From the IMG/VR virus record IMGVR_UViG_3300028840_004242, positions 23,831-87,830 of that record: DNA of 64,000 nt; one strand, 5' to 3'. How positions within the stretch are numbered: the first letter of the stretch is position 1; each line of letters starts with the position of its first letter. A program made the translations under genes and the position numbers. The stretch comes from a virus. The notes under the pieces are model-generated. The model had not been told where the DNA came from and did not search any database. It was given only the letters and a program-made list of their open reading frames with translations. This document shows positions 3,620 to 37,640 of the stretch, piece after piece.

Positions 3620-3630
3620 AGCATAGTGAA

Positions 3631-3675
3631 GCATTAAGCAAGCACAGTTCGTGCAGAATTCGTCAAATATCAGCG
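3631..3675 (+). repeat. Dispersed 45-bp repeat, copy 1
   Basis: First of four copies of an intergenic element whose core reads TTCRTGCAGAATTC followed by RKCAAAT and, upstream, CATTAAGCA. The other copies are at 24,636-24,682 (minus), 43,987-44,030 (minus) and 48,476-48,519 (plus). This copy lies in the 120-base gap before the next glycosyltransferase gene and points the same way. Function is unknown; see findings. Confidence 0.8.
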
Positions 3676-3741
3676 TCAATTTTAACGTGTAATTACATGA
3701 CTTTACGACAATCTCGCAGGAGAAGAAAGGAATACGATAAA

Positions 3742-4713
3742 ATGGCAGAACTTTCAGTAATTATACCGTATGTAAATGAATATCCACAGCTGATATTCAC
3801 TTTGCAATCCATCGCAGGAGAGCTGCGTGACAGGGTAGACTTCGAGATCGTAGCAGTAAACAATTATTGTGATCAATTTGTGAATCAAAGAAAGACTCAG
3901 AACCTACCTTGGGAAGAGGATAAGGGAGCCGAAGCCATTAAAGCTACAGCTCAGAAACAGAACCCATGGTTGAAACATGCAGAGTATTCTGAAAGGCTGT
4001 CCCATTGGAATGCCAAAAGGGTGGGTGTTAAGCACAGCACTGGTGATTATTTATTTTTTGTGGATTCACACGTTATCCTTGCTCGTGACAGCCTTTATGG
4101 TATGCTCCAGTACTATAAGCAGAATGAGGAAAAGATAAACGGATCAATGCACTTACCACTCACTTATAAAATATTAGAATCTCGTAGGTTGATATACAAA
4201 CTTAATGTTGAGTGGTTTGAACATGGGTTACTTGACTACAAATTCACACCCTGTCGTGTAGACAAAGGAGATCCTTTTGAGGTTCCCTGCATGAGTTGTT
4301 GTGGAGTACTCGTATCAAGAAAAGTATATGAAGCATTAGGAGGTTGGTCTCCTGAGCTTGGTATATATGGAGGAGGTGAGAACTTTTTTAATTTTACCCT
4401 ATCCGTTTTGGGAATGAATAAATGGATCTATCCTAATGGTACTTGTTTCCATCATGGTGAAAGGAGAAGCTATCATTACCTTTATGATGACTATGTACGC
4501 AATAAGCTCATCGCTTGTTACCTTTATGGAGGAAGGGATTATGCACTCAAAGCTATTAATGGGGGTCTCAAGGGGAAACCTGAAGTTCTTCACTCTATTT
4601 ATAGGAATGTAGACCTGAAATGTCGCCGCCACAGAGATCATATTCAAAGGCGTCAAAAGGTCAGTATAGAGGATTGGGTAAAGAAGTGGATGCCCCCAGA
4701 CGCTTCTGCCTGA
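3742..4713 (+). CDS. Family 2 glycosyltransferase
   Basis: 323 residues from ATG 3742, chosen because an AGGAGAAGAAAGGA ribosome site precedes it and the protein then opens with the classic GT2 strand (AELSVIIPYVNE). FFVDSHV around residue 108 is the metal-binding DxH/DxD, and SRKVYEALGGWSPELGIYGG resembles the acceptor-side GGxxxx motif of GalNAc-type GT2 enzymes. The resemblance to the GT27/polypeptide GalNAc-transferase end of GT2 is notable because the fibre gene downstream is Ser/Thr-rich. Specificity remains inference. Confidence 0.8.
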   Translation: MAELSVIIPYVNEYPQLIFTLQSIAGELRDRVDFEIVAVNNYCDQFVNQRKTQNLPWEEDKGAEAIKATAQKQNPWLKHAEYSERLSHWNAKRVGVKHSTGDYLFFVDSHVILARDSLYGMLQYYKQNEEKINGSMHLPLTYKILESRRLIYKLNVEWFEHGLLDYKFTPCRVDKGDPFEVPCMSCCGVLVSRKVYEALGGWSPELGIYGGGENFFNFTLSVLGMNKWIYPNGTCFHHGERRSYHYLYDDYVRNKLIACYLYGGRDYALKAINGGLKGKPEVLHSIYRNVDLKCRRHRDHIQRRQKVSIEDWVKKWMPPDASA

Positions 4714-8300: not shown

Positions 8301-8411
8301 TCTGCTGACTGTCTGATCGGGGCTTTTTATATAACCAAGGACAGATTTACACCACAAATCTGGACGGCATTTGGCAAGCCGCTGCATGTGCCGCTGGTGG
8401 ACTTACAATGA
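5322..8411 (+). CDS. Tail fibre or appendage protein with lamin G-like domains
   Basis: 1,029 residues. The first 300 residues are beta-rich without a recognised family. The C-terminal half carries two concanavalin/lamin G-type jelly rolls, about residues 565-790 (opening ILLCHLKCDEN, with IDDVKTFSECL at the end) and about 810-1025 (LTFFWDC, then VWYWVELAWDDSDYIDFYVNG). Such domains bind glycans, so it is likely a host-recognition protein. It overlaps the next gene by 4 bases (ATGA) and is directly before the giant repeat protein, suggesting they are made and assembled together. Confidence 0.75.
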   Translation: MRLVKSEEQNPQDYFLQSGVDEQGDPIYKDVNQEVTDYAPAKAFRKKVFDGTADIVVLSNTIQIYWKGNLVAEAQLEGQVEISPNNWQGQLFSFADSNVQKITEIETDEGTVPVTPFFRCYVVKDIPALGITDAVFGMDVHWAFKNTKLSFYLDTPGFNARIRWQCRVKDSALRWVDESDPLFPVVHKGLWFSVSDYEGNVNHGSQGDPEPGWTQHWWTFEPDGKQIDVADARTPLERYEQGVGLVVDPYLSIEESGSTVTVYCDGFSILFDPTETGGLNCDNNSATTWNYYYPAQVVVSSGVYNLGYDPNSIIEIIESNANRVVLRFRGNFYNSTPTVLTNSDSIEIYLYIYSDRIVQHSKWITSGGNISIDSNGQNGFPMNYIGSGVLTNDTAIYENGGSESTGTGEHGSADYVGIDADELDHILINLSESSTGGSLSQYHSSTRQYRIGWDNCTIEPGTHEIVNVWIFDTEDREGSTKIYDSTDRLAMGDQYKDAILDQSPSKGDDVTDMILPARISSGTLHSDGAHHYEVDTNDAVKLTLDTTRIRPAFAIHDWPFQYGTVASPTDILLCHLKCDENAASPTLTDQTANNADGTWSNISDGSDRNTNTSGDSVQVFGRGRNLDTQDGAGHIEMTFGSGTVHDNAFFCRGSLMIKLLPQFDYDTVDGQGLFELYISSDDYFTCIYNPTPDNWNTGGSVGGSAIWQGSAPQTYDNYSLKRCHVILFSWDLLRHEWFIFYDGVCAASKINTGTAGSGDPVNFEIGSRINRTYPADIIIDDVKTFSECLLPFGAYFIGNGEGLLADINNPHADLTFFWDCQASGAGAAKGGANLGTNYTVTLNGSGVLTTADKIIGTKSFDTTAEGSHSASFSIDANNFDGSYGRIGMWVNFQTVTASKYFLGFGDATDYIDLYISASSYFYAIWQSDGVTRYLASTLTPTAGVWYWVELAWDDSDYIDFYVNGILLDHEDSGGSWSKTTGTMYLGADESGANSADCLIGAFYITKDRFTPQIWTAFGKPLHVPLVDLQ

Positions 8412-8725
8412 GCAAAGGAAAATGGAAAATATATTACACCGACAGTAGCTTTAACGACGAACAGGGCTCCCCTAGGGAGGCACCGTTCTGGGACGTGCAA
8501 GACATTATTCAGTATGATTTGCACACCGAGAGAAAATATCACCAGAACGGTAGCGACTGGTATATTTTCCAAGACGGCTTCTGGGTGGGTGTGGACATGA
8601 TAGGTTTAATTGACTACATGGCACATTATAAGGGAGAAATAATCGTGAAGGCGGGGCGCACCATACCCTCTAAACAATGGCAAAAAATATTCGATACGGC
8701 AAGGAAAGACCCGTACATTAAATGA
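8408..8725 (+). CDS. Hypothetical protein between fibre genes
   Basis: 105 residues, aromatic-rich and soluble (KIYYTDSS, GSDWYIFQDGFWVGVD, SKQWQKIFDTA). It overlaps both neighbours by 4 bases, so translation is coupled with the two fibre proteins. I do not recognise a family. A chaperone or minor tail component is possible from position only. Confidence 0.75.
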   Translation: MSKGKWKIYYTDSSFNDEQGSPREAPFWDVQDIIQYDLHTERKYHQNGSDWYIFQDGFWVGVDMIGLIDYMAHYKGEIIVKAGRTIPSKQWQKIFDTARKDPYIK

Positions 8726-11700
8726 CAAATCCAATTTATACACAGGAGGACTTTCAGGGCTACAAAGACGATGCCGTTCCTGGTAGCGCAACCACGAAAG
8801 CCTCGCTTAATAATGATTGGACGCAGAATACTGATGAGAACTTCCGCATCCGTTTTGCCGTTGTGGAGTCGAACAACAAGGCGGAAGCTAACCCGATGTT
8901 CGAACTGGAATACCGCTACGATTCCACCGGCACGGGGTCAAGCTATGGCTCTTGGACTCAAGTAACAACCACATCAGTCGAAATAGCCTTCTCGACTACC
9001 ACCTACTATACTGACGGCGACCTTGACAATAACAAGCGGGTTTATGACGGAGGTGCATCGTCCAGCGGAGATTTCGGTGAGCTGAGTGACGGCGCAACCA
9101 ACGACACGATTGCTGACACCATCGACTTCGGGGGAAATGAGTTCTGTGAGATGGAGGTCTGCCTCCAGATTAATTCTGTGAACGTTGTCAATGGTGGTTT
9201 GATACAGGTTAGGGTTAAAGACCCGAATTTATCGACATTTGACGAGACGCCCACGATCACGATTTCCTCGCCTACCACTACCACGAGTACTACCACTACC
9301 ACCTTTAGTACTACAAGTACCAGCACCTATTCAACCACAAGTACCAGTACAAGCACTCAAACAAGTACAAGTACCAGCACTCAAACAAGTACAAGTACCA
9401 GCACCTATTCTACCACAAGCACCAGTACAAGCACCTACTCAACTACCAGCACAAGCACCAGCACTTTCAGTACAACCACTACCTTTAGTACAACTAGTAC
9501 TACAACTACCGAACCTCCTTCTACTTGTAATATACAACAGTATGGAGGTACTAATAATTATCAACTAGTATGGTTGCCTGGTGGTGAAATATTAATAACC
9601 ACTGATGATGAACTTACAGCCTCAGAAACTTTGGAGTTCCTATTAGAGTGTGAAGGGGAGGCTGCTACTACCACTACCACTACCACTACTTTTACTACGA
9701 CCAGTACAAGTACCAGCACCTACTCAACAACCAGCACCTATTCTACCACCAGTACAAGTACCAGCACCTATTCAACTACCAGCACCTATTCTACCACCAG
9801 TACTTCTACTAGTACCTATTCTACCACCAGTACTAGCACTCAAACAAGTACCAGCACTAGCACCTTAAGTACAACCAGCACCAGTACCAGTACAAGCACT
9901 TCAACCTATTCAACCACCAGTACAAGCACCAGCACTTCTACCAGTACCTATTCAACTACCAGTACAAGTACCAGTACAAGCACCAGTACCAGCACATACT
10001 CAACCACAAGTACCAGTACCAGTACAAGTACCAGTTCCTATTCAACTACCAGTACAAGTACCAGAACAAGCACAAGTACTTCAACCTATTCAACCACTAG
10101 CACATCTACTAGCACAAGTACTTCAACCTATTCAACCACAAGTACCAGTACCAGCACTAGTACATATTCAACCACAAGTACCAGTACCAGCACAAGTACC
10201 AGCACATACTCAACAACCAGCACAAGCACCAGCACATACTCAACCACCAGCACCAGCACTAGTACATATTCAACCACAAGTACCAGCACTAGCACAAGCA
10301 CCAGCACATACTCAACCACAAGTACAAGTACCAGCACAAGCACCAGCACATACTCAACAACCAGTACCAGCACAAGCACCAGTACCAGCACATACTCTAC
10401 TACAAGTACCAGTACCAGCACAAGCACCAGTACCTATTCAACCACAAGCACCAGTACCAGTACTTCTACCAGCACATACTCAACTACAAGTACCAGTACC
10501 AGCACAAGCACCAGTACCTATTCAACCACAAGCACCAGCACATACTCTACCACAAGCACTAGTACCAGCACATACTCTACCACAAGTAGCAGTACCAGCA
10601 CATACTCAACTACAAGTACCAGTACCAGTACCAGCACCAGTACATACTCAACAACCAGCACTTCTACCAGCACATACTCAACAACCAGTACCAGTACAAG
10701 CACCAGCACCAGTACATACTCAACAACCAGCACCAGCACCAGCACCTATTCAACCACAAGTACCAGTACAAGCACCAGCACCAGTACATACTCAACAACC
10801 AGCACCAGCACCAGCACATACTCAACCACAAGTACCAGTACCAGTACAAGCACCAGCACATACTCTACCACAAGTACAAGTACTAGTACATATTCAACCA
10901 CAAGTAGCAGTACCAGCACTTCTACCAGCACATACTCAACAACCAGCACTTCTACCAGCACATACTCAACAACCAGCACAAGCACCAGCACATACTCAAC
11001 CACAAGTACCAGTACCAGCACAAGTACCAGCACATACTCTACTACAAGTACCAGCACCAGCACATACTCTACTACAAGTACCAGTACCAGCACAAGCACA
11101 AGCACCAGCACTTTCAGTACAACTAGTACCTTCAGTACCACTACAACTACAGAACCAGGAGAAACTACCACCAGTTCCACAACTACTACTTCCTTTACAA
11201 GCACCAGCACCAGCACATACTCAACTACCAGCACAAGCACCAGCACATACTCAACCACAAGTACCAGTACCAGTACCTACTCTACCACAAGTACCAGTAC
11301 CAGCACAAGCACCAGCACATACTCAACCACAAGTACAAGCACTAGTACATATTCAACCACCAGCACATCTACTAGTACAAGCACTTCAACCTATTCAACC
11401 ACAAGTACCAGTACCAGTACAAGTACCAGTACCTATTCAACCACAAGCACCAGTACCAGTACTTCTACCAGCACCTACTCAACAACCAGCACATCTACTA
11501 GTACAAGCACCAGCACATACTCTACTACAAGTACCAGCACCAGTACTTCTACCAGCACCTACTCAACAACCAGCACCTACTCTACTACAAGCACCAGCAC
11601 CTACTCAACAACCAGCACATCTACTAGTACAAGCACCAGCACATACTCTACTACAAGTACCAGCACCAGTACTTCTACCAGCACATACTCAACCACAAGT

Positions 11701-13677
11701 ACAAGCACCAGCACATACTCAACCACAAGTACAAGTACCAGCACAAGCACCAGCACATACTCAACTACCAGTACTTCTACCAGTACATACTCGACAACCA
11801 GCACCAGCACCAGCACCAGCACCAGCACATACTCAACCACAAGTACCAGTACCAGTACAAGTACCAGCACATACTCAACCACAAGTACAAGTACCAGCAC
11901 CTACTCTACAACCAGTACATCTACTAGCACAAGTACCAGCACATACTCAACCACCAGTACCAGCACTAGTACATATTCAACAACCAGCACAAGCACCAGT
12001 ACTTCTACCAGCACCTCAACTTATAGCACTACCAGTACCTTCAGTACCACTACGACTACAGAACCAGGAGAAACTACCACTAGTTCTACAACCACTACTT
12101 CCTTTACAAGCACCAGCACATCTACCTTCAGCACAACTAGCACCAGTTCTAGTACTTCTACCAGTACCTACTCAACCACCAGTACCAGTACCAGTACCAG
12201 TACAAGCACTTACTCTACAACCAGTACAAGTACCAGCACATACTCAACCACAAGTACCAGTACCAGTACAAGTACCAGCACATACTCAACCACCAGCACT
12301 AGTACTTCAACCTATTCAACCACCAGTACAAGCACCAGTACTTCTACCAGTACATATTCAACCACAAGTACAAGCACCAGTACAAGCACCAGTACATACT
12401 CAACTACCAGCACTAGTACTTCAACCTATTCAACCACCAGTACAAGTACCAGCACCAGCACATCTACCTTCAGCACAACTAGCACCAGCACATCCACCTT
12501 CAGCACAACTAGCACCAGCACATCTACCTTCAGCACAACCAGCACCAGCACATACTCTACCACAAGTACCAGCACATCCACCTTTAGTACCACCAGTACA
12601 AGCACCAGCACATACTCTACCACAAGTACCAGCACATACTCAACCACAAGTACCAGCACATACTCAACCACAAGTACCAGCACATACTCTACTACAAGCA
12701 CTAGCACATACTCAACCACAAGTACCAGTACCAGCACCTACTCAACCACAAGTACCAGTACCAGCACTAGTACATATTCAACCACAAGTACCAGTACCAG
12801 CACAAGTACCAGCACATACTCAACAACCAGCACAAGCACAAGCACCTATTCGACCACCAGTACAAGCACAAGCACCAGTACCAGTACCAGTACCAGTACC
12901 TACTCTACTACTAGTACAAGCACCAGTACAAGCACCAGCACATACTCTACCACAAGTACCAGCACATCCACCTTTAGTACCACCAGTACAAGCACAAGCA
13001 CCAGCACCAGTACCAGCACAAGTACCTACTCGACAACCAGCACAAGTACCTACTCGACAACCAGTACCAGTACCAGCACAAGCACAAGCACAAGCACCTT
13101 CAGTACCACTAGTACTCTCAGCACAACGAGCACTACTGGAACAGGAACAACTTCTAGTACTTCTACCAGCACCTTCAGTACAACCAGCACCTATTCAACC
13201 ACAAGTACCAGCACATCTACTTCTAGTACTTACAGTACCACTACGACTACATACCCTCCCTCTGAGGAGCCCCACATTGGATTTACCCGTGACGAGGTCA
13301 CGTTAGGATATAAAAGAGATGTTGTAACATTAGGATTTAAGGAGGTGATTGAGGTGGGCAGCACACCAAAAGTAAAGAACTTTTTCAAGCAACCTTGGGA
13401 GTCCTTCGTGCCATATGGTGACTTTGAGGATGTACTCGAGAGTGGAGAAACTATAGACACCAATAACTCTACCGTAACTGCTAAGGATAAGGACGGCAAT
13501 GCTGTTACTGATATATTGTCAGGCAGTCCCTATGTGGTAGATGTTTACAAATACTGTCAAAGAGTGGTTAGCGGGGATCCAGACTTAGATCCTTATCTAA
13601 TCACTTTTCGCATACAGACTAATCTTAACAATAAATGGGAAGTTGATGTTAAGATGAAAGTAGGTGAGTTAGTATGA
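8722..13677 (+). CDS. Giant Ser/Thr/Tyr-repeat fibre protein (mucin-like)
   Basis: 1,651 residues. Residues 1-180 form a beta-rich head domain. Residues about 183-261 and 314-1510 are almost entirely alternating Thr and Ser, broken by Tyr or Phe in the module YSTTSTST with even spacings. A small folded insert (STCNIQQYGGTNNYQ region, about 267-313) and two copies of a TTTTTEPGETTTSS linker interrupt it. Residues 1511-1651 are a non-repetitive C-terminal domain (EEPHIGFTRDEVTLGYKRD at its start). The DNA is a degenerate AGTACCAGCACA-type repeat, yet the frame is kept open for nearly 5 kb, so coding is under selection. The composition is that of a mucin-like, potentially O-glycosylated stalk. 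Confidence 0.9.
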   Translation: MTNPIYTQEDFQGYKDDAVPGSATTKASLNNDWTQNTDENFRIRFAVVESNNKAEANPMFELEYRYDSTGTGSSYGSWTQVTTTSVEIAFSTTTYYTDGDLDNNKRVYDGGASSSGDFGELSDGATNDTIADTIDFGGNEFCEMEVCLQINSVNVVNGGLIQVRVKDPNLSTFDETPTITISSPTTTTSTTTTTFSTTSTSTYSTTSTSTSTQTSTSTSTQTSTSTSTYSTTSTSTSTYSTTSTSTSTFSTTTTFSTTSTTTTEPPSTCNIQQYGGTNNYQLVWLPGGEILITTDDELTASETLEFLLECEGEAATTTTTTTTFTTTSTSTSTYSTTSTYSTTSTSTSTYSTTSTYSTTSTSTSTYSTTSTSTQTSTSTSTLSTTSTSTSTSTSTYSTTSTSTSTSTSTYSTTSTSTSTSTSTSTYSTTSTSTSTSTSSYSTTSTSTRTSTSTSTYSTTSTSTSTSTSTYSTTSTSTSTSTYSTTSTSTSTSTSTYSTTSTSTSTYSTTSTSTSTYSTTSTSTSTSTSTYSTTSTSTSTSTSTYSTTSTSTSTSTSTYSTTSTSTSTSTSTYSTTSTSTSTSTSTYSTTSTSTSTSTSTYSTTSTSTYSTTSTSTSTYSTTSSSTSTYSTTSTSTSTSTSTYSTTSTSTSTYSTTSTSTSTSTSTYSTTSTSTSTYSTTSTSTSTSTSTYSTTSTSTSTYSTTSTSTSTSTSTYSTTSTSTSTYSTTSSSTSTSTSTYSTTSTSTSTYSTTSTSTSTYSTTSTSTSTSTSTYSTTSTSTSTYSTTSTSTSTSTSTSTFSTTSTFSTTTTTEPGETTTSSTTTTSFTSTSTSTYSTTSTSTSTYSTTSTSTSTYSTTSTSTSTSTSTYSTTSTSTSTYSTTSTSTSTSTSTYSTTSTSTSTSTSTYSTTSTSTSTSTSTYSTTSTSTSTSTSTYSTTSTSTSTSTSTYSTTSTYSTTSTSTYSTTSTSTSTSTSTYSTTSTSTSTSTSTYSTTSTSTSTYSTTSTSTSTSTSTYSTTSTSTSTYSTTSTSTSTSTSTYSTTSTSTSTSTSTYSTTSTSTSTYSTTSTSTSTSTSTYSTTSTSTSTYSTTSTSTSTSTSTSTYSTTSTFSTTTTTEPGETTTSSTTTTSFTSTSTSTFSTTSTSSSTSTSTYSTTSTSTSTSTSTYSTTSTSTSTYSTTSTSTSTSTSTYSTTSTSTSTYSTTSTSTSTSTSTYSTTSTSTSTSTSTYSTTSTSTSTYSTTSTSTSTSTSTFSTTSTSTSTFSTTSTSTSTFSTTSTSTYSTTSTSTSTFSTTSTSTSTYSTTSTSTYSTTSTSTYSTTSTSTYSTTSTSTYSTTSTSTSTYSTTSTSTSTSTYSTTSTSTSTSTSTYSTTSTSTSTYSTTSTSTSTSTSTSTSTYSTTSTSTSTSTSTYSTTSTSTSTFSTTSTSTSTSTSTSTSTYSTTSTSTYSTTSTSTSTSTSTSTFSTTSTLSTTSTTGTGTTSSTSTSTFSTTSTYSTTSTSTSTSSTYSTTTTTYPPSEEPHIGFTRDEVTLGYKRDVVTLGFKEVIEVGSTPKVKNFFKQPWESFVPYGDFEDVLESGETIDTNNSTVTAKDKDGNAVTDILSGSPYVVDVYKYCQRVVSGDPDLDPYLITFRIQTNLNNKWEVDVKMKVGELV

Positions 13678-25470: not shown

Positions 25471-25612
25471 CTTGTTCCTCCTTGATGTCAATACGAATAA
25501 TCTTACCTACCCAGTATGCTTTCACCGTTGTGTGGTCCTCATAAAGGTCAATTCTCTTCTGACCATCAGCTACTCTTGTGTAGGCTTCTTGGATCATTTC
25601 CATTGTGTCCAT
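25463..25612 (-). CDS. 49-residue hypothetical protein
   Basis: ATG 25612 follows TAGGAGGATGATTG, an excellent ribosome site, and TAA is at 25,463-25,465. Product is small, charged and soluble (EAYTRVADGQKRIDLYEDHT). No family recognised. Confidence 0.6.
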   Translation of the reverse strand: MDTMEMIQEAYTRVADGQKRIDLYEDHTTVKAYWVGKIIRIDIKEEQDG

Positions 25613-25763
25613 CAATCATCCTCCTAAAGTATCTGTTGAAGTCACCACCTTCACGTACCCAAAAGTAAGACATCACCAACCGTGCTTTTACCTTTCTGAA
25701 GTAAGCCTCACGGTGTAAGCCTGCTTTGCCATGTCCTGGATTGCCTGCTAAGTAGAGTTTCAT
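25566..25763 (-). CDS. Small MK-[IL]-Y-x-AG family protein, paralogue 1
   Basis: 65 residues beginning MKLYLAGNPGHGKAGLHREA and continuing KARLVMSYFWVREGG. Three more genes in this window share the plan (28,548; 29,896; 30,274): MK-aliphatic-Y-x-A-G/A, a charged helix with an early Arg, then R/xL-x-S/T-F/Y-Y. The pattern resembles, from memory, the first strand and helix of phage TGT-like (DpdA-type) proteins, but the catalytic part is absent. Function unknown. Confidence 0.65.
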   Translation of the reverse strand: MKLYLAGNPGHGKAGLHREAYFRKVKARLVMSYFWVREGGDFNRYFRRMIDGHNGNDPRSLHKSS

Positions 25764-25903
25764 ATTTTATCAAACAGCCTTAATACACAGGTGGTAAATA
25801 AGGCCGTCATGCAGATTAAACCAATAGCTCTCCACACAATATTACCTATTTTGTGCCAGTTAATTCCTGGGCTTGGTTTTAGACTTGGTGGTACATATCC
25901 CAT
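25760..25903 (-). CDS. 47-residue membrane microprotein
   Basis: ATG 25903 to TGA 25,760-25,762, overlapping the next ATG as ATGA. A Pro-rich N-terminus is followed by one transmembrane helix (IVWRAIGLICMTALFTTCVL). It lies directly after the DNA polymerase gene. Function unknown. Confidence 0.55.
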   Translation of the reverse strand: MGYVPPSLKPSPGINWHKIGNIVWRAIGLICMTALFTTCVLRLFDKI

Positions 25904-25912
25904 AATTCACCA

Positions 25913-28558
25913 TCAATAATTTAAATCATATATCTTTCCTGACTCTACACCTACGAAGTCACCATTCTTATTCATCGTCACTTCCTCTTTCGTGTACCAA
26001 TTAGCATTGATAGGTGTAAATTCAAATTCCATTATAAGTGGTACAATAATCCAATCAAATTCATCTCGTATGTCTTTCTCTGCTACTTGGCGTATAGTTT
26101 CAACCACCATCTCTTGTTCAGGAGGATAAGTATCAAACATCATACTGTCATGTACTTGACTGAGCAACTCGCTGTCCCAGTTTTCATCCCTTGCTATGTC
26201 ATCACACCTGTTACATGACCACAGTAGGCAGTGAAAAGCGGTTGCCTGTATAGGTGTGTTGATAACTTCATTCATGGATAAGTAGCCACTCCTTCTATGT
26301 CCAAAATAAGTAGTTACATATCCCTTTTTTACATAATCACGAATCACCTTTTCTTGCCATTGTTTAGTTTTCTTAAAACGGTTCCAGTAACGGCGTTCGT
26401 AGTTCTTACAGTGAGTCTCAAAGCGATCATAAGAGGCTATGTCTTTAGATCTTAACCACTCTTTCATTAGCTCACCTTCAACTGTTTTCAGTCCTCCTTC
26501 TACAACTGAACTCCAGAGGTGCTTTGCACAATTACCATAGTAGGAGCCATATAACTGTGGAAATACCCATTGATTCTTACTGTAAAATCTTACTGCACCC
26601 GTAACCTGCTTACTGTCCAACTTAAATACCTCTGCCGCACAATCACGGTGCATGTCAGCACCTGGGGTGACGATATAGTTTATCCATTCAGGGTCCTCTG
26701 TATAGCATCCAGCGATTCTGACTTCTTGGCTTCCATAGTCAGACTCAATAAATCTAAAGTCATCTGAAGGGATGATTCCAGTTCTACAAGTACGTTTTGC
26801 ATCCTCTTCACGGACCGGAATATTATGCAGATTAGGATTGTTTGAGCTACTACGGTAAGTGCGAGCGATATGAAGATTAAAGAAGCTGTGGACTCGTCCA
26901 TTGTATTCCTCCCTTAGAAATTGTGCTAAGTAGGTATCTTTGATCTTTTTAGATCGCCTGTGCTGTAATATTCTCTGAGTGAAATCAGTATTTATCTCGT
27001 CTAATACCTCAACGTCTACACTCTCCTGCTGACCTGTTTTAGTTTTCTTAACAGGAGGATATTTTAAGATATTGAACAGTAAGTGGCGAACGTCAGAGCC
27101 TGAGCTATGGTTGAAGGGCTTACCTGTCTTAGATCTGAACTTTTTTGCTTCAGGAGAATTTAGTATCATTCTATCCAGCCTCTTCATCTTATTCTCAAGC
27201 CTGACATCCTCCTTTTTGTAGTAATTTATATCAACAGGAACCCCACGCCGTTGCATATTATTGAAGGTGTAGATAGAGCGTTGGTAGAAGCTGCGGGCTC
27301 TTTCAAGCTCTAAATTTTGCTCTAAATATTGTTTCTGTAGGAAATACAGTTTGCGAGTGAAGATACAATCCATCCCACAGTAAAGCATCAGCTTTTCAAG
27401 TGGTGCATTATCAATATCATTATACTCTACTGTGTTGTCCGTTTCTAGGTAAGGTCTAATCTCATCTTCATACCCCTCAACACCAAAATTGAGGAAGGTT
27501 TGAAATTTGAGCCCAGTAAAGTATTTCCTATCGTCTATTAAGTGAGCTGTGTTCATCGTACACCAGCTCAAGTTTCGAGGTCTAACTCCAGCTCTTATTG
27601 TGCTCCAGAGGTCCTCATATGCTACATTGTGGGCTATTTTCTTTACGGGTTCCCATGTTAGAACTCTTCTCCATAACCTTAGCACTTTATTTTGCTCATT
27701 TTCTTTCCAATAGTTAGGCTTCTCTAAGGGAAACACATAAGCATCTTCATCAAAAGAGAGACCTACACAGTGAATCCTGTGCTCAGGTTTAAATGGTTTA
27801 CGACCTGTAGTTTCGTAGTCGAAGGACATGATAGCATTATTCATATCCAGTATTTTATGGACTAATTCCTCAACCTCTTTTATTTTGTAAAGCAAATGAA
27901 CATTCTTTTCATAATTTTTATATAGAGGTAGTGGAGTTTTCCATTTAAGGGCTTCCTTTAGATCTCTTTCAAAGGTAGCTTGTATGTTGGGATCCTTTTG
28001 TCCTCTCATAGCCCAACTGGGGTGAAACATAGGATGTACCCAGAGCATGTGTTTCATATCAGGCACATGCAACCCTCTCCACCTTGTTATTGCTCGCTTG
28101 TCAAACCTATCTCCATATAAGCTGTCTATCGCATAGCCTCCCATTGTCCAGAGGTGGTCAAATTTATATTCTTCCAGTGCTTTGAGAACATAAGGACGGC
28201 AGCAGTTTATCTCTTTCATGGAGGGCTTTGCGTTCTTGGGCTTGCGGCAGTTGATAGCGTTAAGCATGTAGCAATCGCGATGTAGACTGATTCCTAAAGA
28301 TGATAATTTATTGGCTAAGAAAGTGCCAGCCTCCCCCACCAGCTGTGTTCCTTTTATGTCTTCCGTTTCCCCAGGCTCTTCACATAGTATGAAGATTCCT
28401 TTTTCACCCTTTCCACCTACAGGCATTTTAGGTGTCTTAGGCCAAGTATGTAGCCCACATGCCTTGCAATCAGGCTCTCCTGGTGTGTTATATTTTATAT
28501 CAAGAGCTGACTTTCGTGGTGCCTTCTTTTCGAATGTAAAGAAACCTTTATTTGCCAT
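25913..28558 (-). CDS. Family A DNA polymerase with N-terminal UDG-like domain
   Basis: 881 residues. Residues 28-205 resemble family 4 uracil-DNA glycosylases: Cys31/Cys34 and Cys104/Cys119-120 could hold the Fe-S cluster, CEEPGETEDIKGTQLVGEAG is motif A and HPMFHPSW motif B. Residues about 243-410 are the 3'-5' exonuclease (DYE at 247-249, HNVAYEDLW, YCGMD). Residues 420-881 are the polymerase: motif A IESDYGSQE (Asp607), motif B RFYSKNQWVFPQLYG (Arg657, Lys661), motif C QVHDSM (Asp804). No 5' nuclease domain, matching the separate FEN gene. The UDG-PolA layout is known from SPO1-like phages. Confidence 0.93.
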   Translation of the reverse strand: MANKGFFTFEKKAPRKSALDIKYNTPGEPDCKACGLHTWPKTPKMPVGGKGEKGIFILCEEPGETEDIKGTQLVGEAGTFLANKLSSLGISLHRDCYMLNAINCRKPKNAKPSMKEINCCRPYVLKALEEYKFDHLWTMGGYAIDSLYGDRFDKRAITRWRGLHVPDMKHMLWVHPMFHPSWAMRGQKDPNIQATFERDLKEALKWKTPLPLYKNYEKNVHLLYKIKEVEELVHKILDMNNAIMSFDYETTGRKPFKPEHRIHCVGLSFDEDAYVFPLEKPNYWKENEQNKVLRLWRRVLTWEPVKKIAHNVAYEDLWSTIRAGVRPRNLSWCTMNTAHLIDDRKYFTGLKFQTFLNFGVEGYEDEIRPYLETDNTVEYNDIDNAPLEKLMLYCGMDCIFTRKLYFLQKQYLEQNLELERARSFYQRSIYTFNNMQRRGVPVDINYYKKEDVRLENKMKRLDRMILNSPEAKKFRSKTGKPFNHSSGSDVRHLLFNILKYPPVKKTKTGQQESVDVEVLDEINTDFTQRILQHRRSKKIKDTYLAQFLREEYNGRVHSFFNLHIARTYRSSSNNPNLHNIPVREEDAKRTCRTGIIPSDDFRFIESDYGSQEVRIAGCYTEDPEWINYIVTPGADMHRDCAAEVFKLDSKQVTGAVRFYSKNQWVFPQLYGSYYGNCAKHLWSSVVEGGLKTVEGELMKEWLRSKDIASYDRFETHCKNYERRYWNRFKKTKQWQEKVIRDYVKKGYVTTYFGHRRSGYLSMNEVINTPIQATAFHCLLWSCNRCDDIARDENWDSELLSQVHDSMMFDTYPPEQEMVVETIRQVAEKDIRDEFDWIIVPLIMEFEFTPINANWYTKEEVTMNKNGDFVGVESGKIYDLNY

Positions 28559-28739
28559 TGCTGAAGTCGTTCACTCCTTTGTAGTTAATTTCCTCTATCC
28601 GTTTGTAGTGTTTCAGCGTGATGAGGCACTTCTTGAGGTAGAAGAAGGTTACAAGTCTGTTTTTGATTCCAGATGCTTCCAGCCCTTCTTCCCGTGTGCG
28701 TTGTAGCCCTGCTGGTACTCCTGCAAAGTAGATTTTCAT
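28548..28739 (-). CDS. Small MK-[IL]-Y-x-AG family protein, paralogue 2
   Basis: 63 residues opening MKIYFAGVPAGLQRTREEGL and then KNRLVTFFYLKK. Aligns with the genes at 25,566, 29,896 and 30,274. ATGA overlap with the upstream membrane protein; its end overlaps the polymerase start. Function unknown. Confidence 0.65.
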   Translation of the reverse strand: MKIYFAGVPAGLQRTREEGLEASGIKNRLVTFFYLKKCLITLKHYKRIEEINYKGVNDFSNGK

Positions 28740-28927
28740 TTGCTTATCTTATAGATGATTCCAAGTACAAAGGATAATATTGACCAAAGCAGCACTTTAA
28801 TTTCTCCAATGTCAGATAGAGGTTGGGTAGAAATCCAATCGTATCTAAAGTTATGTATTTCATTCCAACTCACTATACCTATTAAAAATAGGAAAAACCA
28901 TCCAAGTAGGTAGAAAAGAACTTGCAT
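28736..28927 (-). CDS. Small two-helix membrane protein
   Basis: 63 residues: LFYLLGWFFLFLIGIVSW and LLWSILSFVLGIIYKI are two transmembrane helices with a 20-residue loop. Directly after the sliding clamp gene. Function unknown. Confidence 0.6.
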   Translation of the reverse strand: MQVLFYLLGWFFLFLIGIVSWNEIHNFRYDWISTQPLSDIGEIKVLLWSILSFVLGIIYKISK

Positions 28928-28928
28928 C

Positions 28929-29945
28929 TTATTGTTCCGGTAAGCTAATTATATGTTGAAATCGTTCGCTCTTAAAGTAAGCTAGGTCATCTGTGGCAAC
29001 CATTGTGGTTGCTTTCTCAAGTACTTGGCTGAGGAAGAAAGGGTTGATGAAGAAATGGAACTCCTTATCACTTTCGAAGTCAACGAAGTCCTCAATCTCC
29101 CCTACGCTCTTCTCTGCCTTGCACTTTATCTTGTCCTTCTCTATAATCACTTCAACCCGTTTGTCTAAATCAATCTTACCTTCCGCCATAAACACTACAG
29201 ATTCTATTAAGGGCTTTAGCTCTGTAGGTAGTGTGAGTTCTGTGCCCTGAACGTCAAAGTATTCTAAAACGTCAGGGTATTTATCTTCCATCACCCTTGC
29301 TGAAAACGTAACATCTTTGCCAGTCTTAAAATGCACCCAATTCTTCTTCAGACAAACTTTAGTGATGTCAAAATTGATCAAGTCAGCTACCGACCTAGCT
29401 GGTATCAGCGTAGAGAATCCTGTGCCTGAGGGAAGTGTATAAAGGGAGATACGTGCTTCATCAGAGCTTGCAAGGTAAGTGTCGTTTACATATACACAGG
29501 TGCCTGCTCCCTTTGTCATGTCCTTACTGGCGCTAAACATGCAGAGGAACATTCCTTTTACGAACTCCCTTGGTAGCCTCTGCCATTCTTCTATTTTATC
29601 CAATTCCAGCATTTCGATCATCTTCTCTGCATCCCTCTCCACTTCTGTGCTCAACTTCGCCTCCCTGCTGCTCGTTTTAACGAGCATTTTATCATCTTCC
29701 ATTTCAAGTTTAACAGCTTGGTTCCCACGGGTGCCAGTTAGGGTTTTATACAGATCATCAGCTATGACGCTACATTGGAAGTCAGTTTGGAGAGGATGGC
29801 TTACACAGATTTCATCATTATATGTCATCACTGCGTTGCCACTGAAAATGAAATGAGTAAACTGTTCTATGATTCCCTTGCTTGCCAGTCCAGGTTTAAC
29901 TGCTTGGAGTATCTCCAGCAGGTCGTTCTTTTCCATTAGTTCCAT
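28929..29945 (-). CDS. DNA polymerase sliding clamp (DnaN-like)
   Basis: 338 residues after AAAGGGGGAAG. Strand-rich throughout with three repeats of a clamp-type domain; SSDEARISLYTLP resembles the DnaN 'TDGHRL' loop, FSTLIPARSVADLI the central domain, and ARVMEDKYPDVLEYF the 'G.YPD' signature. A homodimeric ring that tethers the polymerase is expected, loaded by the clamp loader at 23,689. Sequence is divergent, so the call rests on these motifs plus position beside the polymerase. Confidence 0.75.
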   Translation of the reverse strand: MELMEKNDLLEILQAVKPGLASKGIIEQFTHFIFSGNAVMTYNDEICVSHPLQTDFQCSVIADDLYKTLTGTRGNQAVKLEMEDDKMLVKTSSREAKLSTEVERDAEKMIEMLELDKIEEWQRLPREFVKGMFLCMFSASKDMTKGAGTCVYVNDTYLASSDEARISLYTLPSGTGFSTLIPARSVADLINFDITKVCLKKNWVHFKTGKDVTFSARVMEDKYPDVLEYFDVQGTELTLPTELKPLIESVVFMAEGKIDLDKRVEVIIEKDKIKCKAEKSVGEIEDFVDFESDKEFHFFINPFFLSQVLEKATTMVATDDLAYFKSERFQHIISLPEQ

Positions 29946-30123
29946 TTAGCTTCCCCCTTTCATAAGGTATTCCTGTTGCTAACTCCCAGCTCTTTCTGCG
30001 AAATTGAAAGCCTCCATGTTCTAAATCATAGTAACTAAAAAGGACTCTCTGGGTAGCACCATGCAAGGCCCGTACATGATGCTCCCAGAGGTCACTTCCC
30101 ACTGCCGCGAAGTATATTTTCAA
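29896..30123 (-). CDS. Small MK-[IL]-Y-x-AG family protein, paralogue 3
   Basis: 75 residues from TTG 30123 (TTGA overlap with the upstream stop), opening MKIYFAAVGSDLWEHHVRAL and then QRVLFSYYDLEHGG. Same plan as the genes at 25,566, 28,548 and 30,274. The tail overlaps the clamp gene by 50 bases. Function unknown. Confidence 0.6.
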   Translation of the reverse strand: MKIYFAAVGSDLWEHHVRALHGATQRVLFSYYDLEHGGFQFRRKSWELATGIPYERGKLNGTNGKERPAGDTPSS

Positions 30124-30335
30124 GGTAGGATTATTCCTCCTTTACTTCTGCGTTCAGGTAATAACTTTTTTACGCCGCCTTCTGTGCGTAGAGCAATTAA
30201 TATGGACTCCACGGTGGGTAGAAATTTGTTATCTGACTTTCGGAAGTGTCGGACACCCTGCTTAAGGGCATTCTCAATCGTCATTATCAGCTTTCGGGCG
30301 TCCTGCTCTGGATTCCTCACTAACTTTGATGACAT
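30120..30335 (-). CDS. Hypothetical protein
   Basis: 71 residues from ATG 30335, chosen for the AAAAGGAGCAAAGA site just upstream; ATG 30392 lies further upstream with no such site. Helical and basic (NPEQDARKLIMTIENALKQG). Sits between two members of the MK-Y-AG family and overlaps one of them by 62 bases. Family unknown. Confidence 0.55.
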   Translation of the reverse strand: MSSKLVRNPEQDARKLIMTIENALKQGVRHFRKSDNKFLPTVESILIALRTEGGVKKLLPERRSKGGIILP

Positions 30336-30474
30336 TCTTTGCTCCTTTTCTATGGTAAAAGCTGGCAAGTCTGTTGTAGGAACTATAGCCATTCTTCAGT
30401 ACATACTCTTTCATAGCTCGTTCCTTCTGTATGTCATTCATTACAGGGAAATTGCCAGCCATATATAGTATCAT
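30274..30474 (-). CDS. Small MK-[IL]-Y-x-AG family protein, paralogue 4
   Basis: 66 residues opening MILYMAGNFPVMNDIQKERA and then RLASFYHRKGAKN. The fourth family member, the closest to the DpdA-like gene, with ATGA overlap upstream. The first Lys of the motif is Ile here. Function unknown. Confidence 0.55.
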   Translation of the reverse strand: MILYMAGNFPVMNDIQKERAMKEYVLKNGYSSYNRLASFYHRKGAKNVIKVSEESRAGRPKADNDD

Positions 30475-30665
30475 TTAGATTGATCCACTAAGACAGTTAT
30501 TCTTCCTTTTATTGTTAAAAAGGATAGTTTCAGTAATCTCCATCCTACTCTCCTTGCTTCTTTCCTAGAGATATTTAGAATTACCATTTGTTTAGGTAGG
30601 GTAGTAGTGGTTACTGGAATTTTACTCGTAGAAGAATCAGTTTTATTATTTGATGTATTAGTCAA
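30471..30665 (-). CDS. Small hypothetical protein, start uncertain
   Basis: 64 residues from TTG 30665, which overlaps the dpdA-like stop (TTGA); AAGGA is eleven bases upstream. Thr/Ser-rich N-terminus, basic C-terminal half (SRKEARRVGWRLLKLS). Unknown family. Confidence 0.45.
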   Translation of the reverse strand: MTNTSNNKTDSSTSKIPVTTTTLPKQMVILNISRKEARRVGWRLLKLSFLTIKGRITVLVDQSK

Positions 30666-31849
30666 AATAAGTTGAATCCTTTCGGCATTTTGTGGCGCTT
30701 GAAAGCCCAAGGCCAGTCAGGTTGACTCTTTTCTAAATCTAGATAGTAAAGTATGTTCAATTCATCTCTTACTCTGTAGTCAGTAGCAAGGCCCTTTTCA
30801 ATTTCGATTTCAACTTCCCGTTCTTTATCTCCTTTTCTTCCACTAACGAATCTCTCATTATCCTGGAGGTCGTAGCCATTGCCGACAAGTTTATACTTAC
30901 AACTTCCAAGTCGGAAACCTTTTTCGTGGTAGTAATTAAGGATGAAATTTCGTTCAGCAGGTGAGTAATTTGAGATATGTTTTCCCTGCATCTCTTTAAA
31001 CGGACTTCTATCTGAAACTGCAACGCTGTGGGGCGAGACGTTGTAGACACGTTTACCTCCTTTTGTTCTTGGAGTCAATACTATACCATACTTACCATAT
31101 TTTACCCAGCTGGCACTATCCACACTGTACCAGGGATAGCGACTAACAAGTTCAGGTGCTGTCACCGCGAAGCCATGTACTTTAACCCGCGGGATGCCAT
31201 TGTCGTAGGTCAACAGGTAATCCCAAATGTCATCCAACGGAGGTATAATAACTGAAGTAGGGTTAGGAACCAATCCACCTATTGCTATGTACTCATAGCC
31301 TTTAGCTAGATACATCTCAAGCCATTTGATCTCGCATCCAAAATGCCAAACAGGTATAGGCTTTAGGCCTTTGCTCTCCATATACTGCTGATTCTCCCAG
31401 GTAGCTTCTGCATTATTAATCACATCAAGTACGGCATAGACTTCTAGGTTAGGAAGGTACTCCTTAATAAACATGGTATACTTGCGACGATAGATTTTGT
31501 ATTCGTTCATCTCAAGGAAGCTGAAGTCATCATGCTTCCTGTCCTTTAGGTAACTTCCCATGTAAGTGTGAGCACCTCCTTCTTTGTTTCTCACAAGGGA
31601 GTTATAAAGGCTAGGAGCCCCAGAGTCCATAAATATCTTTACATCGTCATATTTCACCATATACTTTATCCTTTCCCATAAATCCCTTACAGTTCTATCC
31701 CGTACCTGAAGTAGCTTAATTGCGGTGTGAGGTCTCATTCCTATTCTAGGAGTAGCAGGAGGTTTGCTTATAGCATTTCCCAGCTCTTCTCTTAGATTGA
31801 GTATATCGTAAGTGCCTTCAATGCTGAAATGATTATTATAGAGTTTCAT
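30662..31849 (-). CDS. dpdA: DpdA-like 7-deazaguanine DNA transglycosylase (TGT fold)
   Basis: 395 residues. FMDSGAPSLYN (about 76-86) matches the DSGAFS nucleophile/base-binding loop of queuine tRNA-ribosyltransferases, YIAIGGLV the GGLA substrate pocket, and VKVHGFAVTAPELVSRYPWY with VDSASW the typical DpdA barrel signature. DpdA swaps guanine in DNA for a 7-deazaguanine base. folE, queD and queE in the same block support this. It starts with ATGA overlap and the adjacent small paralogues may be partners. Confidence 0.8.
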   Translation of the reverse strand: MKLYNNHFSIEGTYDILNLREELGNAISKPPATPRIGMRPHTAIKLLQVRDRTVRDLWERIKYMVKYDDVKIFMDSGAPSLYNSLVRNKEGGAHTYMGSYLKDRKHDDFSFLEMNEYKIYRRKYTMFIKEYLPNLEVYAVLDVINNAEATWENQQYMESKGLKPIPVWHFGCEIKWLEMYLAKGYEYIAIGGLVPNPTSVIIPPLDDIWDYLLTYDNGIPRVKVHGFAVTAPELVSRYPWYSVDSASWVKYGKYGIVLTPRTKGGKRVYNVSPHSVAVSDRSPFKEMQGKHISNYSPAERNFILNYYHEKGFRLGSCKYKLVGNGYDLQDNERFVSGRKGDKEREVEIEIEKGLATDYRVRDELNILYYLDLEKSQPDWPWAFKRHKMPKGFNLF

Positions 31850-34433: not shown

Positions 34434-34772
34434 TTACCTTGGTTCGAATGTTCTGTAGTATTCTGCTCCATTTTCACCATCCTCAAATACACTCACATAG
34501 TCAGCCTTAAAGTGGTCTGCGAGCTGTTTACATATCATCTCGCAACTCCTATGCCCTAGGTCCATTGTCATATTTGCATTGATATATTCCTGTACTTCCC
34601 ATTTCATCATGAAGAATTCTATATCTCTATCGTCATGATGAACAATCCACTTCATCTCTACATGGAACATGTGACGATGGGGCTCTCTTAGGAAAGCTAC
34701 TTCATCCGGTGCGCTAGGCCAACAATGCAAGGCTTCAAATTGAGTTCTAATTACAACGAATGTTTTAGGCAT
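34434..34772 (-). CDS. QueD/PTPS-like T-fold protein (divergent)
   Basis: 112 residues from ATG 34772, overlapping the upstream stop (TAATG). QFEALHCWPSAP followed by REPHRHMFHVEM places His16, His32 and His34 like the zinc triad of QueD (FDAAH, then HGH), and a terminal SVFEDGE resembles the catalytic-Glu region. The usual Cys before HxH is missing, though Cys17 follows the first His. So it may be a second, altered carboxy-tetrahydropterin synthase or a binding protein of that fold. Call is tentative. Confidence 0.5.
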   Translation of the reverse strand: MPKTFVVIRTQFEALHCWPSAPDEVAFLREPHRHMFHVEMKWIVHHDDRDIEFFMMKWEVQEYINANMTMDLGHRSCEMICKQLADHFKADYVSVFEDGENGAEYYRTFEPR

Positions 34773-35158
34773 TACTTCCTCCAATAAAGTGACCAGTCAC
34801 ATCCATCCTTGTCAGCTAAGAAAGGGAAGATGTGCCAAATAACCCAGGTAGGTTCATGTTCGTTTAAGGCATCACAGTAGTCTTTTTCAGGATACACGTA
34901 TTCGTTTGGGACATCTCCGTCTGCTGCTGCTCCAGGAGAAGCACCTGCAGATGCAGAACCTCCAGAACCGCCAGAACCGCCAGAACCACCTGAACCTCCA
35001 CCGTCGTCTCCACCTGAACCTCCACCGTCGTCTCCACCTGAACCTCCACCGTCGTCTCCACCTGAACCTCCACCGTCGCCGCCCCCACAACTCAAGGCGG
35101 GATTTACCACAAGGGCAAATACACAGACGATTGCTAAAATCCAAATTATTTTTCTCAT
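34772..35158 (-). CDS. Exported Gly/Asp-repeat protein
   Basis: 128 residues. A signal peptide (IIWILAIVCVFALVVNPALS) is followed by Cys24 and four copies of an 8-residue GGDDGGGS-type unit, a GGS/GSGG run and a small Cys-containing C-terminal part (YCDALNEHEPTWVIWH). The repeat could bind Ca2+ or act as a flexible spacer; whether Cys24 is lipidated is unclear because the preceding residues ALS are a poor lipobox. Strange company for nucleotide-modification genes. Confidence 0.65.
   Translation of the reverse strand: MRKIIWILAIVCVFALVVNPALSCGGGDGGGSGGDDGGGSGGDDGGGSGGDDGGGSGGSGGSGGSGGSASAGASPGAAADGDVPNEYVYPEKDYCDALNEHEPTWVIWHIFPFLADKDGCDWSLYWRK
34987..35082. repeat. Tandem 24-bp repeat, four units
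   Basis: Units of CACCTGAACCTCCACCGTCG plus four more bases at 34,987, 35,011, 35,035 and 35,059, the last with changes. They encode the GGDDGGGS repeat of the surrounding gene. The first three units are almost identical, implying recent slippage or recombination. A shorter 9-bp repeat (AGAACCGCC) adjoins it. Confidence 0.9.
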
Positions 35159-35183: not shown

Positions 35184-35384
35184 TTAATAAGCATCAACGT
35201 ATTCACACATTATAGACAATGCTTCATCATAACTGCCACTATGAAAAATTCTATCTACCATCTCCTTAGCCTCATCATTAAGGCCTTCCTTTCTAAGGGC
35301 TTTCTGGCAGATTCCCATAAGGTTGAATACATTACCATTTTCTCCAACGAGTTTTACTTTTGGTTTCTTTTTCTTTTCGTTCAT
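35184..35384 (-). CDS. Small conserved phage protein
   Basis: 66 residues (KVKLVGENGNVFNLMGICQK, then SGSYDEALSIMCEYV). This looks like a small protein often seen in phage replication regions, of unknown function (recall, not search). ATG overlaps the folE stop. Confidence 0.65.
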   Translation of the reverse strand: MNEKKKKPKVKLVGENGNVFNLMGICQKALRKEGLNDEAKEMVDRIFHSGSYDEALSIMCEYVDAY

Positions 35385-35968
35385 TCTATCATCCCCTGCA
35401 TCATTGAAAGTTTGATTAAGTCCATTGCTTCCGCTCTTGCTTTTGCATCCTTTTTAAGAACTCCAGATAAAGAAGAGGTTATCATTCCTGCTCCTCCACT
35501 CTGCTTTACTCCTCTGCATCTCATACAGCTATGAATAGCTCGCATTACGAGTATAGTTCCTTTAGGTTCAATTTGTTTGTCAAATTCTTTAATGCAGTTC
35601 ATACATAGGAATTCTTGAAGATTAGGGCAAGCACTATAATGCTCTATAAGGCGTGAGGGTTTAGAGGCACCTATAACAAATTTATCTGGAATATATCCCA
35701 TCCAAGCGTATCCCTCAAAAGGTAAGAAATGATGACTACACCAACTTACGAAGTGTATTCTATCTAACATTATTAGCTCTTGAATGTTTTCTTCGTTTGG
35801 AAACTTGGTGAGTTTTGGTTTACATTCCATTTTAGCATTCCTGAAAATATGACGATACATTTTTGCCATACGTTCAGGGGTGCCAACAAGGTTGGGGTCA
35901 TCTAACGACAACCCCAACCCTTGTTCGATGATCAGCTTGAAACAATCCTTGATAAGTCTTTCATTCAT
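35381..35968 (-). CDS. folE: GTP cyclohydrolase I
   Basis: 195 residues. GTPERMAKMY and SWCSHHFLPFEG are the FolE signatures; Cys77, His80 and Cys151 (CMRCRGV) are the expected zinc ligands. It converts GTP to dihydroneopterin triphosphate, the first step toward 7-deazaguanines. Close to queD, queE and dpdA, so it most likely feeds DNA modification. The N-terminus is shorter than in bacterial FolE. Confidence 0.93.
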   Translation of the reverse strand: MNERLIKDCFKLIIEQGLGLSLDDPNLVGTPERMAKMYRHIFRNAKMECKPKLTKFPNEENIQELIMLDRIHFVSWCSHHFLPFEGYAWMGYIPDKFVIGASKPSRLIEHYSACPNLQEFLCMNCIKEFDKQIEPKGTILVMRAIHSCMRCRGVKQSGGAGMITSSLSGVLKKDAKARAEAMDLIKLSMMQGMIE

Positions 35969-36613: not shown

Positions 36614-37270
36614 TTACCTAGGTTCTGGAAGTTTCACCAATTTGTGCAACTGAAGGCTGAGCTGTACGTCCCAAATATTGTCTTCCAGCATCCAATAGTA
36701 TAGAGCAGCAGGTTCTAACCTATCCAGGACTGGAGAGAAAGCGCACCTTGCCTTGGAATTTCTCTGTTTCAGTCTCCTATAAGCTCTTTTTGCCTCTTGA
36801 TAGTCACTCTCGTCTGATATCACAAATTTAACCACGTCATTTTGGGAAAACACGTTAGTATTAGCCCATTGAAAAACATCACCTACTCCTGCACCAGGCA
36901 GCTTATAGTCTACCACATAGCAATCCACGGTGCAGAGCTGCCGTGGGGGTAGAGCGTAGGCTCCATTTGTTTCTACCGTAACGTGGAATCCTTTAGTTCT
37001 AACCAGTGAGATAAACTGAAGCAATTCTTCCCCTTGCTCTAGTGGCTCACCCCCTGTGATCAACAAATAGGGACCTTTATACTTCTCCACTCTTTCTATT
37101 AACCTAAAAATGTCCATTTCCTTGCCTACTCTAGGATCTTGGGCATACTTTGTATCACAGTAGTTACAACCTAAGCTACACCCAGCAGTTCGTACGAATG
37201 TTGCCCAACTACCCTGTCCACGGCAATTTGCCTCCCCGTGTATGCTGGAGAAAATGCTGTAAATCTTCAT
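36614..37270 (-). CDS. queE: 7-carboxy-7-deazaguanine synthase
   Basis: 218 residues. The radical SAM cluster is CSLGCNYCDTKYA (Cys31, 35, 38), preceded by the QueE-typical FSSIHGEANCRGQGSWATFV and followed by LLITGGEPL. It converts carboxy-tetrahydropterin to 7-carboxy-7-deazaguanine (CDG). Its start overlaps queD by 62 bases, which is long but the AGGT site at GGAGGTACGTC supports it. Confidence 0.93.
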   Translation of the reverse strand: MKIYSIFSSIHGEANCRGQGSWATFVRTAGCSLGCNYCDTKYAQDPRVGKEMDIFRLIERVEKYKGPYLLITGGEPLEQGEELLQFISLVRTKGFHVTVETNGAYALPPRQLCTVDCYVVDYKLPGAGVGDVFQWANTNVFSQNDVVKFVISDESDYQEAKRAYRRLKQRNSKARCAFSPVLDRLEPAALYYWMLEDNIWDVQLSLQLHKLVKLPEPR

Positions 37271-37640
37271 GACGTACCTCCACGTAACTGGTTGGTGTTT
37301 CCCACAGCCTTACTTTTGAAATACCTCTATCCTCTTCCTCTTCAAAGTATTTATCTAGCTCATAAAATATCTTAAAGGCTATGATTTCTGCTGTGGGATT
37401 CTCAAATATATCATTTAGGTAAGAATGATCAAGGTTGTTAAGAACAACCTCTTCTACTAAATCTTTTAGATCTTTAAAGTCAATAACCATTCCTTCTATT
37501 GTGCTTCTTTCATTCGTAACTACAGGTCCATATGCTTCTACCTCCAACTTATAGGTATGACCATGTAGCTTATTACAGTCCCCACGATACTTAGGTAGTT
37601 GATGAGCTGCATCAAATGTAAATGTCTTTCCTACTATCAT
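37209..37640 (-). CDS. queD: 6-carboxy-5,6,7,8-tetrahydropterin synthase
   Basis: 143 residues. FTFDAAHQLPKY and CNKLHGHTYKLEVE give the catalytic Cys22 and zinc ligands His13, His26 and His28; DFKDLKDLVEE and LDHSYLND follow as in the family, and the terminal LWETPTSY has the catalytic Glu. It makes the substrate of QueE. Good GGGAGGTAACTAA site. Confidence 0.93.
   Translation of the reverse strand: MIVGKTFTFDAAHQLPKYRGDCNKLHGHTYKLEVEAYGPVVTNERSTIEGMVIDFKDLKDLVEEVVLNNLDHSYLNDIFENPTAEIIAFKIFYELDKYFEEEEDRGISKVRLWETPTSYVEVRHEDLQHFLQHTRGGKLPWTG

Follow-up and report, generated by a model that had tools for sequence, protein, structure and literature searches.

What does a phage do with four short, diverged genes distributed among its DNA polymerase, its sliding clamp and dpdA? 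DpdA is the phage enzyme that exchanges guanines in DNA for modified (7-deazaguanine) bases. The four genes, which we call arms A to D, lie in a 64,000-nucleotide stretch of a viral metagenomic record (positions 23,831 to 87,830 of IMG/VR record IMGVR_UViG_3300028840_004242), hereafter the window. An earlier sequence-only reading had singled them out, and all four open reading frames do exist where it placed them (Table 1), all on the minus strand, with a real common start (M-K-[IL]-Y-x-A), a real [RV]-L-x-[ST]-[FY]-[FY] core and diverged tails. That reading also had the genes interleave with polymerase and clamp genes and lead to dpdA. The interleaving holds, as the clamp lies between arms C and B and polA between arms B and A, but the order is reversed: the arm genes are on the minus strand, so that dpdA is transcribed before them and the arms follow it. 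The end of arm B overlaps the start of polA, arm C overlaps the start of the clamp, and the clamp itself is related to that of phage 9g. FolE, QueD and QueE are present nearby; QueC was sought throughout the 87.8 kb record and was not found, which reflects either an incomplete record or an inserted base that is an earlier intermediate of the pathway. The same neighbourhood encodes (34772-35158) a protein with a signal-like start and (GGGSGGDD)n repeats.

Table 1. Arm genes and neighbouring genes of the window
Feature	Position	Strand	Length and type	Evidence
Arm A	25566..25763	-	65 aa	jackknife HMM E 3.1e-8
UDG-like domain fused to family A DNA polymerase (polA)	25913..28558	-		PF03167 E 5.5e-18; PF00476 E 3.8e-55
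Arm B	28548..28739	-	63 aa, VPAG/VPGG type	HMM E 4.5e-12
Sliding clamp	28929..29945	-		PHROG 947 (processivity factor) E 2e-25
Arm C	29896..30123	-	75 aa, TTG start, AVGSD..SYYDL..FRRK type	HMM E 4.7e-11
ORF overlapping arm D	30120..30392	-	90 aa	no significant family match (Pfam, PHROGs)
Arm D	30274..30474	-	66 aa, NFPVMN/SVMN.KGRE type	HMM E 6.9e-8
dpdA (TGT-like DNA base exchange enzyme)	30662..31849	-	395 aa	PHROG 887 E 8e-37
FolE (GTP cyclohydrolase I), 7-deazaguanine pathway	35381..35968	-		PF01227 E 3e-42
QueE-like radical SAM protein	36614..37270	-		PF04055 E 2e-12; aligns with QueE of relatives
QueD (6-pyruvoyl tetrahydropterin synthase family)	37209..37640	-		PF01242 E 1e-32

The four window arms are only weakly alike in pairwise comparison (about 13-23 identities per 51-61 aligned positions), and chance similarity therefore had to be tested. 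To train a profile HMM, 128 stand-alone relatives were taken from other phages' records, the window and its near-copy L201 being left out. Among the 371 open reading frames of the window, the arms took ranks 1-4 (E 4.5e-12 to 6.9e-8), with the next window ORF at E 0.22 and the best of 1855 shuffled ORFs at 0.07. Chance similarity is thus rejected, and the profile comparison confirms that, as judged from sequence, A to D constitute one protein family, as the sequence-only reading had proposed. No further arm was found in the whole 87.8 kb record. Arms C and D resemble arms of relative L193 (37/55 and 32/61 identical residues, respectively), and the nearest relative of arm A (21/51) is an arm of relative L004 (1169-1324), which is likewise located downstream of polA.

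Curated families do not cover these proteins (Pfam, NCBIfam, PHROG). Searched singly against Pfam and PHROGs, A to D gave nothing significant; arm B aligned weakly (E 0.11, profile positions 10-47) with PHROG 887, a queuine tRNA-ribosyltransferase family, and a tblastn search of phage records with it returned chance matches only. A larger set of 47 arms gave no match at E<=0.01 in Pfam or NCBIfam and a single weak one in PHROGs (one member to phrog_33194, E 0.0011).

The origin of the family became apparent from the stand-alone HMM, which matches full-length DpdA/TGT-like phage proteins from residue 1 (E 3e-15 to 1e-4). Among proteins carrying the arm in cis, the best scores were obtained for L043 (3e-15), L152 (1e-12), L107 (1e-8) and L017 (8e-8), with weaker matches to the 9g type (2e-4 for L211 and 2e-3 for 9g itself, L010). 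Structural placement was established on a cis form, the DpdA of relative L155. In its AlphaFold2 model (pLDDT 89.8) beta1 spans residues 2-5, alpha1 13-19, beta2 24-28 and beta3 51-55; the LFLDSGAFS strand is beta3, and the stretch corresponding to an arm precedes it as beta1-alpha1-beta2. The loop around residues 11-20 is flexible, and this beta1-alpha1 loop is the least confident part of the model besides its C-terminal end. With Foldseek alone, neither the L155 nor the window DpdA model had a convincing match. On the other hand, VIA-align placed a DpdA structure (7ui4) at the top for L155 (Z 18.1, 262 residues, 3.4 A), with TGTs close behind (Z about 17.9), and equated TGT residue 40 with arm residue 1. 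We therefore regard homology of the arms to the DpdA/TGT N-terminus as near certain, in strong agreement with the earlier description of the four as stand-alone N-terminal elements of TGT-like phage proteins. By position in the structural alignment, the arms would supply the part of the barrel next to the substrate backbone. At 63-75 residues they lack the catalytic core (the DSGA strand and the remaining barrel) and hence are not enzymes on their own.

Cores encoded apart from this N-terminal element are common among the relatives. Nearly all relatives have a core start codon within about 5-10 codons upstream of beta3, and in many of them the dpdA core gene begins there, commonly preceded by a purine-rich stretch. 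A cis arm is absent in about 30-36 of the 68 non-redundant loci, a count given as a range since the scripted N-terminus classes are approximate (several rows scored as "none" or "b2-only" do hold cis arms). Where a cis arm is present, the start codon of the core is usually retained. The cis arm of one phage may be 54-60% identical to a stand-alone arm of another (L156/L158 32/53, L179/L133 32/53, L170/L132 30/56), and two further cis/stand-alone pairs share 27/45 and 21/40 residues; arms therefore change place. In the window DpdA, beta3 is preceded by 70 residues. In its AlphaFold2 model (best structural match human TGT 7nq4, Z 12.6 by VIA) residues 1-67 show a pLDDT of about 32-48 and no strand is predicted ahead of residue 73, although this low confidence may stem from a shallow alignment with few homologues covering the region. 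The model fits a core lacking both beta1 and beta2.

Some genomes, however, combine one cis arm with several trans arms, and in TGT the beta1-alpha1 loop-helix is located at the homodimer interface, where its displacement disturbs the dimer (PMC5395182). Both observations would suit dominant-negative or regulatory subunits that mimic the DpdA dimer interface and limit or time its activity. We consider this unlikely, as many cores lack an arm in cis and a barrel missing two strands would need one, while the exchange of whole arms between cis and trans better fits a constructive part. The preferred reading is that exchangeable arms, phase-variable in relatives (see below), complete a split DpdA barrel in trans; the complex itself is presumed, and we hold the reading as a whole to be probable, though far from certain. 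The partner-subunit role that the sequence-only reading had offered as one option is thus the best-supported function, by virtue of the split cores, the cis/trans exchange and the linkage to dpdA, with binding to the core itself putative.

The extent of this linkage was assessed by two routes. Relatives were collected from IMG/VR with degenerate DNA patterns and, independently of arm sequence, by a DpdA-core alignment scan that gave 463 relatives, of which 80 were kept; the same core scan of bacterial and archaeal assemblies added 15 loci, making 95 in all. A two-motif search in any frame (M-[KRI]-x-[YFHWN]-x-[AS], then an L-x-[ST]-[FY] motif) detected 191 arms on the dpdA strand of these 95 loci and 0 on the opposite strand. 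At least one arm occurs in 74 of the 80 viral loci and a stand-alone arm in 67, with up to six copies in this uncultured phage clade, and the arms reside in a helicase-QueD-QueE-QueC-FolE-dpdA-clamp-polA-loader gene block. High-identity members of this DpdA clade were not found in cultured phages or plasmids (best 50%). Recurring types can be distinguished among the arms (ATW..QG, APGNE, SVMN.KGRE, ADT.QR, TPGT.ERE, VPGG, FRRK), several of them shared by many phages, arms D, B and C of the window being SVMN-like, VPGG-like and FRRK-like, respectively. The dN/dS ratio, mostly about 0.1-0.4 in close arm pairs, shows purifying selection.

Position within the block also points in another direction. 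Partners other than DpdA are possible, because several arms lie nearer to the clamp or polA than to dpdA and, in relative L009, an FRRK-type arm (a relative of arm C) runs in frame into UDG-PolA (10422-13160, 912 aa from the arm start, with the polA start codon kept inside). In many phages arms are situated between clamp and polA, and they could now act independently of DpdA, as replisome partners or anti-defence factors. This we judge quite unlikely: dpdA is present in 28 of 30 arm-bearing records, the remaining two being fragments; none of the control phages that encode an ordinary DpdA or TGT-like protein carries a stand-alone arm (some have the N-terminus in cis); and in L051, L070 and L110 arms are found between QueD and QueE, among deazaguanine synthesis genes and away from dpdA. 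The suggestion that the four genes are toxins or anti-defence factors found no direct support, and no evidence for a toxin role emerged.

In many relatives, the segment of the arm that separates the two motifs carries a poly-G, poly-C or (AG)n tract, which places the tract in the beta1-alpha1 loop. In 36 records of the family, 46 of the 86 such repeats fall within arms, which account for 3% of the DNA. In a non-redundant set of 175 arms, those out of frame number 27 of 59 where a tract is present and 6 of 116 where it is absent (odds ratio 15, P=3e-10); assembly errors could account for some of the homopolymer frameshifts. The tract-bearing arms that are in frame (32/59) exceed the expectation of one third (P=0.0008). 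Four relatives that are about 91% identical differ in tract length (C7/C8/C9, G8/G9 and AG counts) and in the gain or loss of whole arms, while their DpdA cores align without any indel. One pair of 98.7% identity has just two indels, a small one of 29 bp within an arm and a 301 bp block. The tracts, their length variation and the frame loss linked to them bear the signature of phase variation in these relatives. Programmed ribosomal frameshifting is disfavoured, as five kinds of repeat occur (G, C, AG, CT, AT), tract lengths vary between close relatives and in-frame versions exist. Inspection of window arms A to D revealed no tract, and the window phage therefore appears fixed.

Two further explanations were weighed. 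According to the first, the arms are translational switches, i.e. coupled frames whose phase sets the expression of downstream dpdA, clamp or polA, the peptide itself mattering little; the overlap or adjacency of arm starts and stops with neighbouring genes and the position of the tracts early in the frame would be in line with this. It is nevertheless very unlikely, given that amino-acid sequences are kept as distinct types across phages, with the low dN/dS given above for most close pairs, and that many arms have no tract. According to the second, the arms are functionless, decaying relics of repeated partial dpdA duplications, as might be read from the frameshifted arms and from the turnover of whole arms between close relatives. 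Purifying selection, the recurrence of conserved types, the tie between frame loss and repeats and the excess of in-frame tract-bearing arms all speak against decay; the relic explanation is extremely improbable, and we reject it on the conserved types and dN/dS.

The mechanism that we propose for barrel completion in trans would operate as follows. In this clade DpdA is often encoded in pieces, with a core gene beginning at beta3 (LFLDSGAFS) and arms supplied by separate small genes; an arm would dock on the core and complete the barrel, and alternative arms, as different versions of the part near the substrate backbone, would tune the enzyme. In the relatives, replication slippage at a tract would switch single arms on or off and so yield mixed enzyme forms within a phage population. 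Motif preference does exist in the DpdA family, since CAjan DpdA is reported to modify GA and GGC sites (PMC8306585). That the arms alter target specificity is nonetheless speculative, and we put it forward only tentatively. Equally conjectural is a viral combinatorial phasevarion, in which any of several phase-variable arms could complete the barrel, each with its own DNA target preference, to give many modification patterns per population. The physical complex, the change in specificity and the benefit against host defences are what we infer; repeats able to switch arms suggest that related phages may shuffle the disguise of their DNA.

DpdA, TGT and phage poly-G tracts (in Campylobacter phages) are known already. 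Phage DpdA of the 9g/CAjan kind (PDB 7ui4, a DNA preQ0 insertase) shares the core fold and family, its 9g-like N-terminus corresponding to a cis arm. It is, however, a single full-length chain, whereas in the clade described here the arm often has its own gene, occurs in as many as six copies and may be subject to phase variation. Bacterial TGT likewise has the barrel, with the arm at residues 40 onward, but is one chain with a tRNA substrate and no loose arms. In phasevarions and in HsdS or Mod switching, slippage at repeats or recombination determines which form of a DNA-modifying enzyme is produced. Those systems are bacterial restriction-modification methylases, whereas the enzyme here is viral, exchanges bases and has interchangeable arms of its barrel. 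Campylobacter phages reportedly use hypermutable polyG tracts to create diversity and evade bacterial resistance (Sorensen 2021, cited in PMC10877375), with neither DNA modification nor an arm family involved; the genes concerned are those for receptor binding. Neither DpdA splitting nor phase variation is mentioned in PMC6884629, and a literature search of incomplete coverage, and hence weak as evidence, found no account of phages with a split DpdA, with loose arms or with DNA modification subject to phase variation.

If the proposal is correct, these phages would both modify their DNA against restriction and randomise how they do so, by means of micro-genes that finish an active enzyme. It would also represent a natural split TIM barrel with strands interchangeable in trans, on which the evolution of barrels out of beta-alpha modules could be tested and which could provide enzymes whose DNA motifs are selectable. 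Loose arms occur in hundreds of related uncultured phages, and hundreds of small unannotated phage genes would gain a name. Three things had escaped the sequence-only reading: that DpdA is split, how large the family is, and that relatives carry hypermutable tracts.

Several loci showed additional peculiarities. In L157 two dpdA-like ORFs are arranged in tandem (2037-2957 and 2957-3805), the second with a diverged cis arm, and the DpdA of L034 is interrupted (about 539-1458). L196 has an insert in its clamp loader gene near position 9632 that is missing from its near-copy L194. Intein-like inserts are present in QueC of L007 (ORF 2-1561) and in PolA of L020 (ORF 7653-10121).
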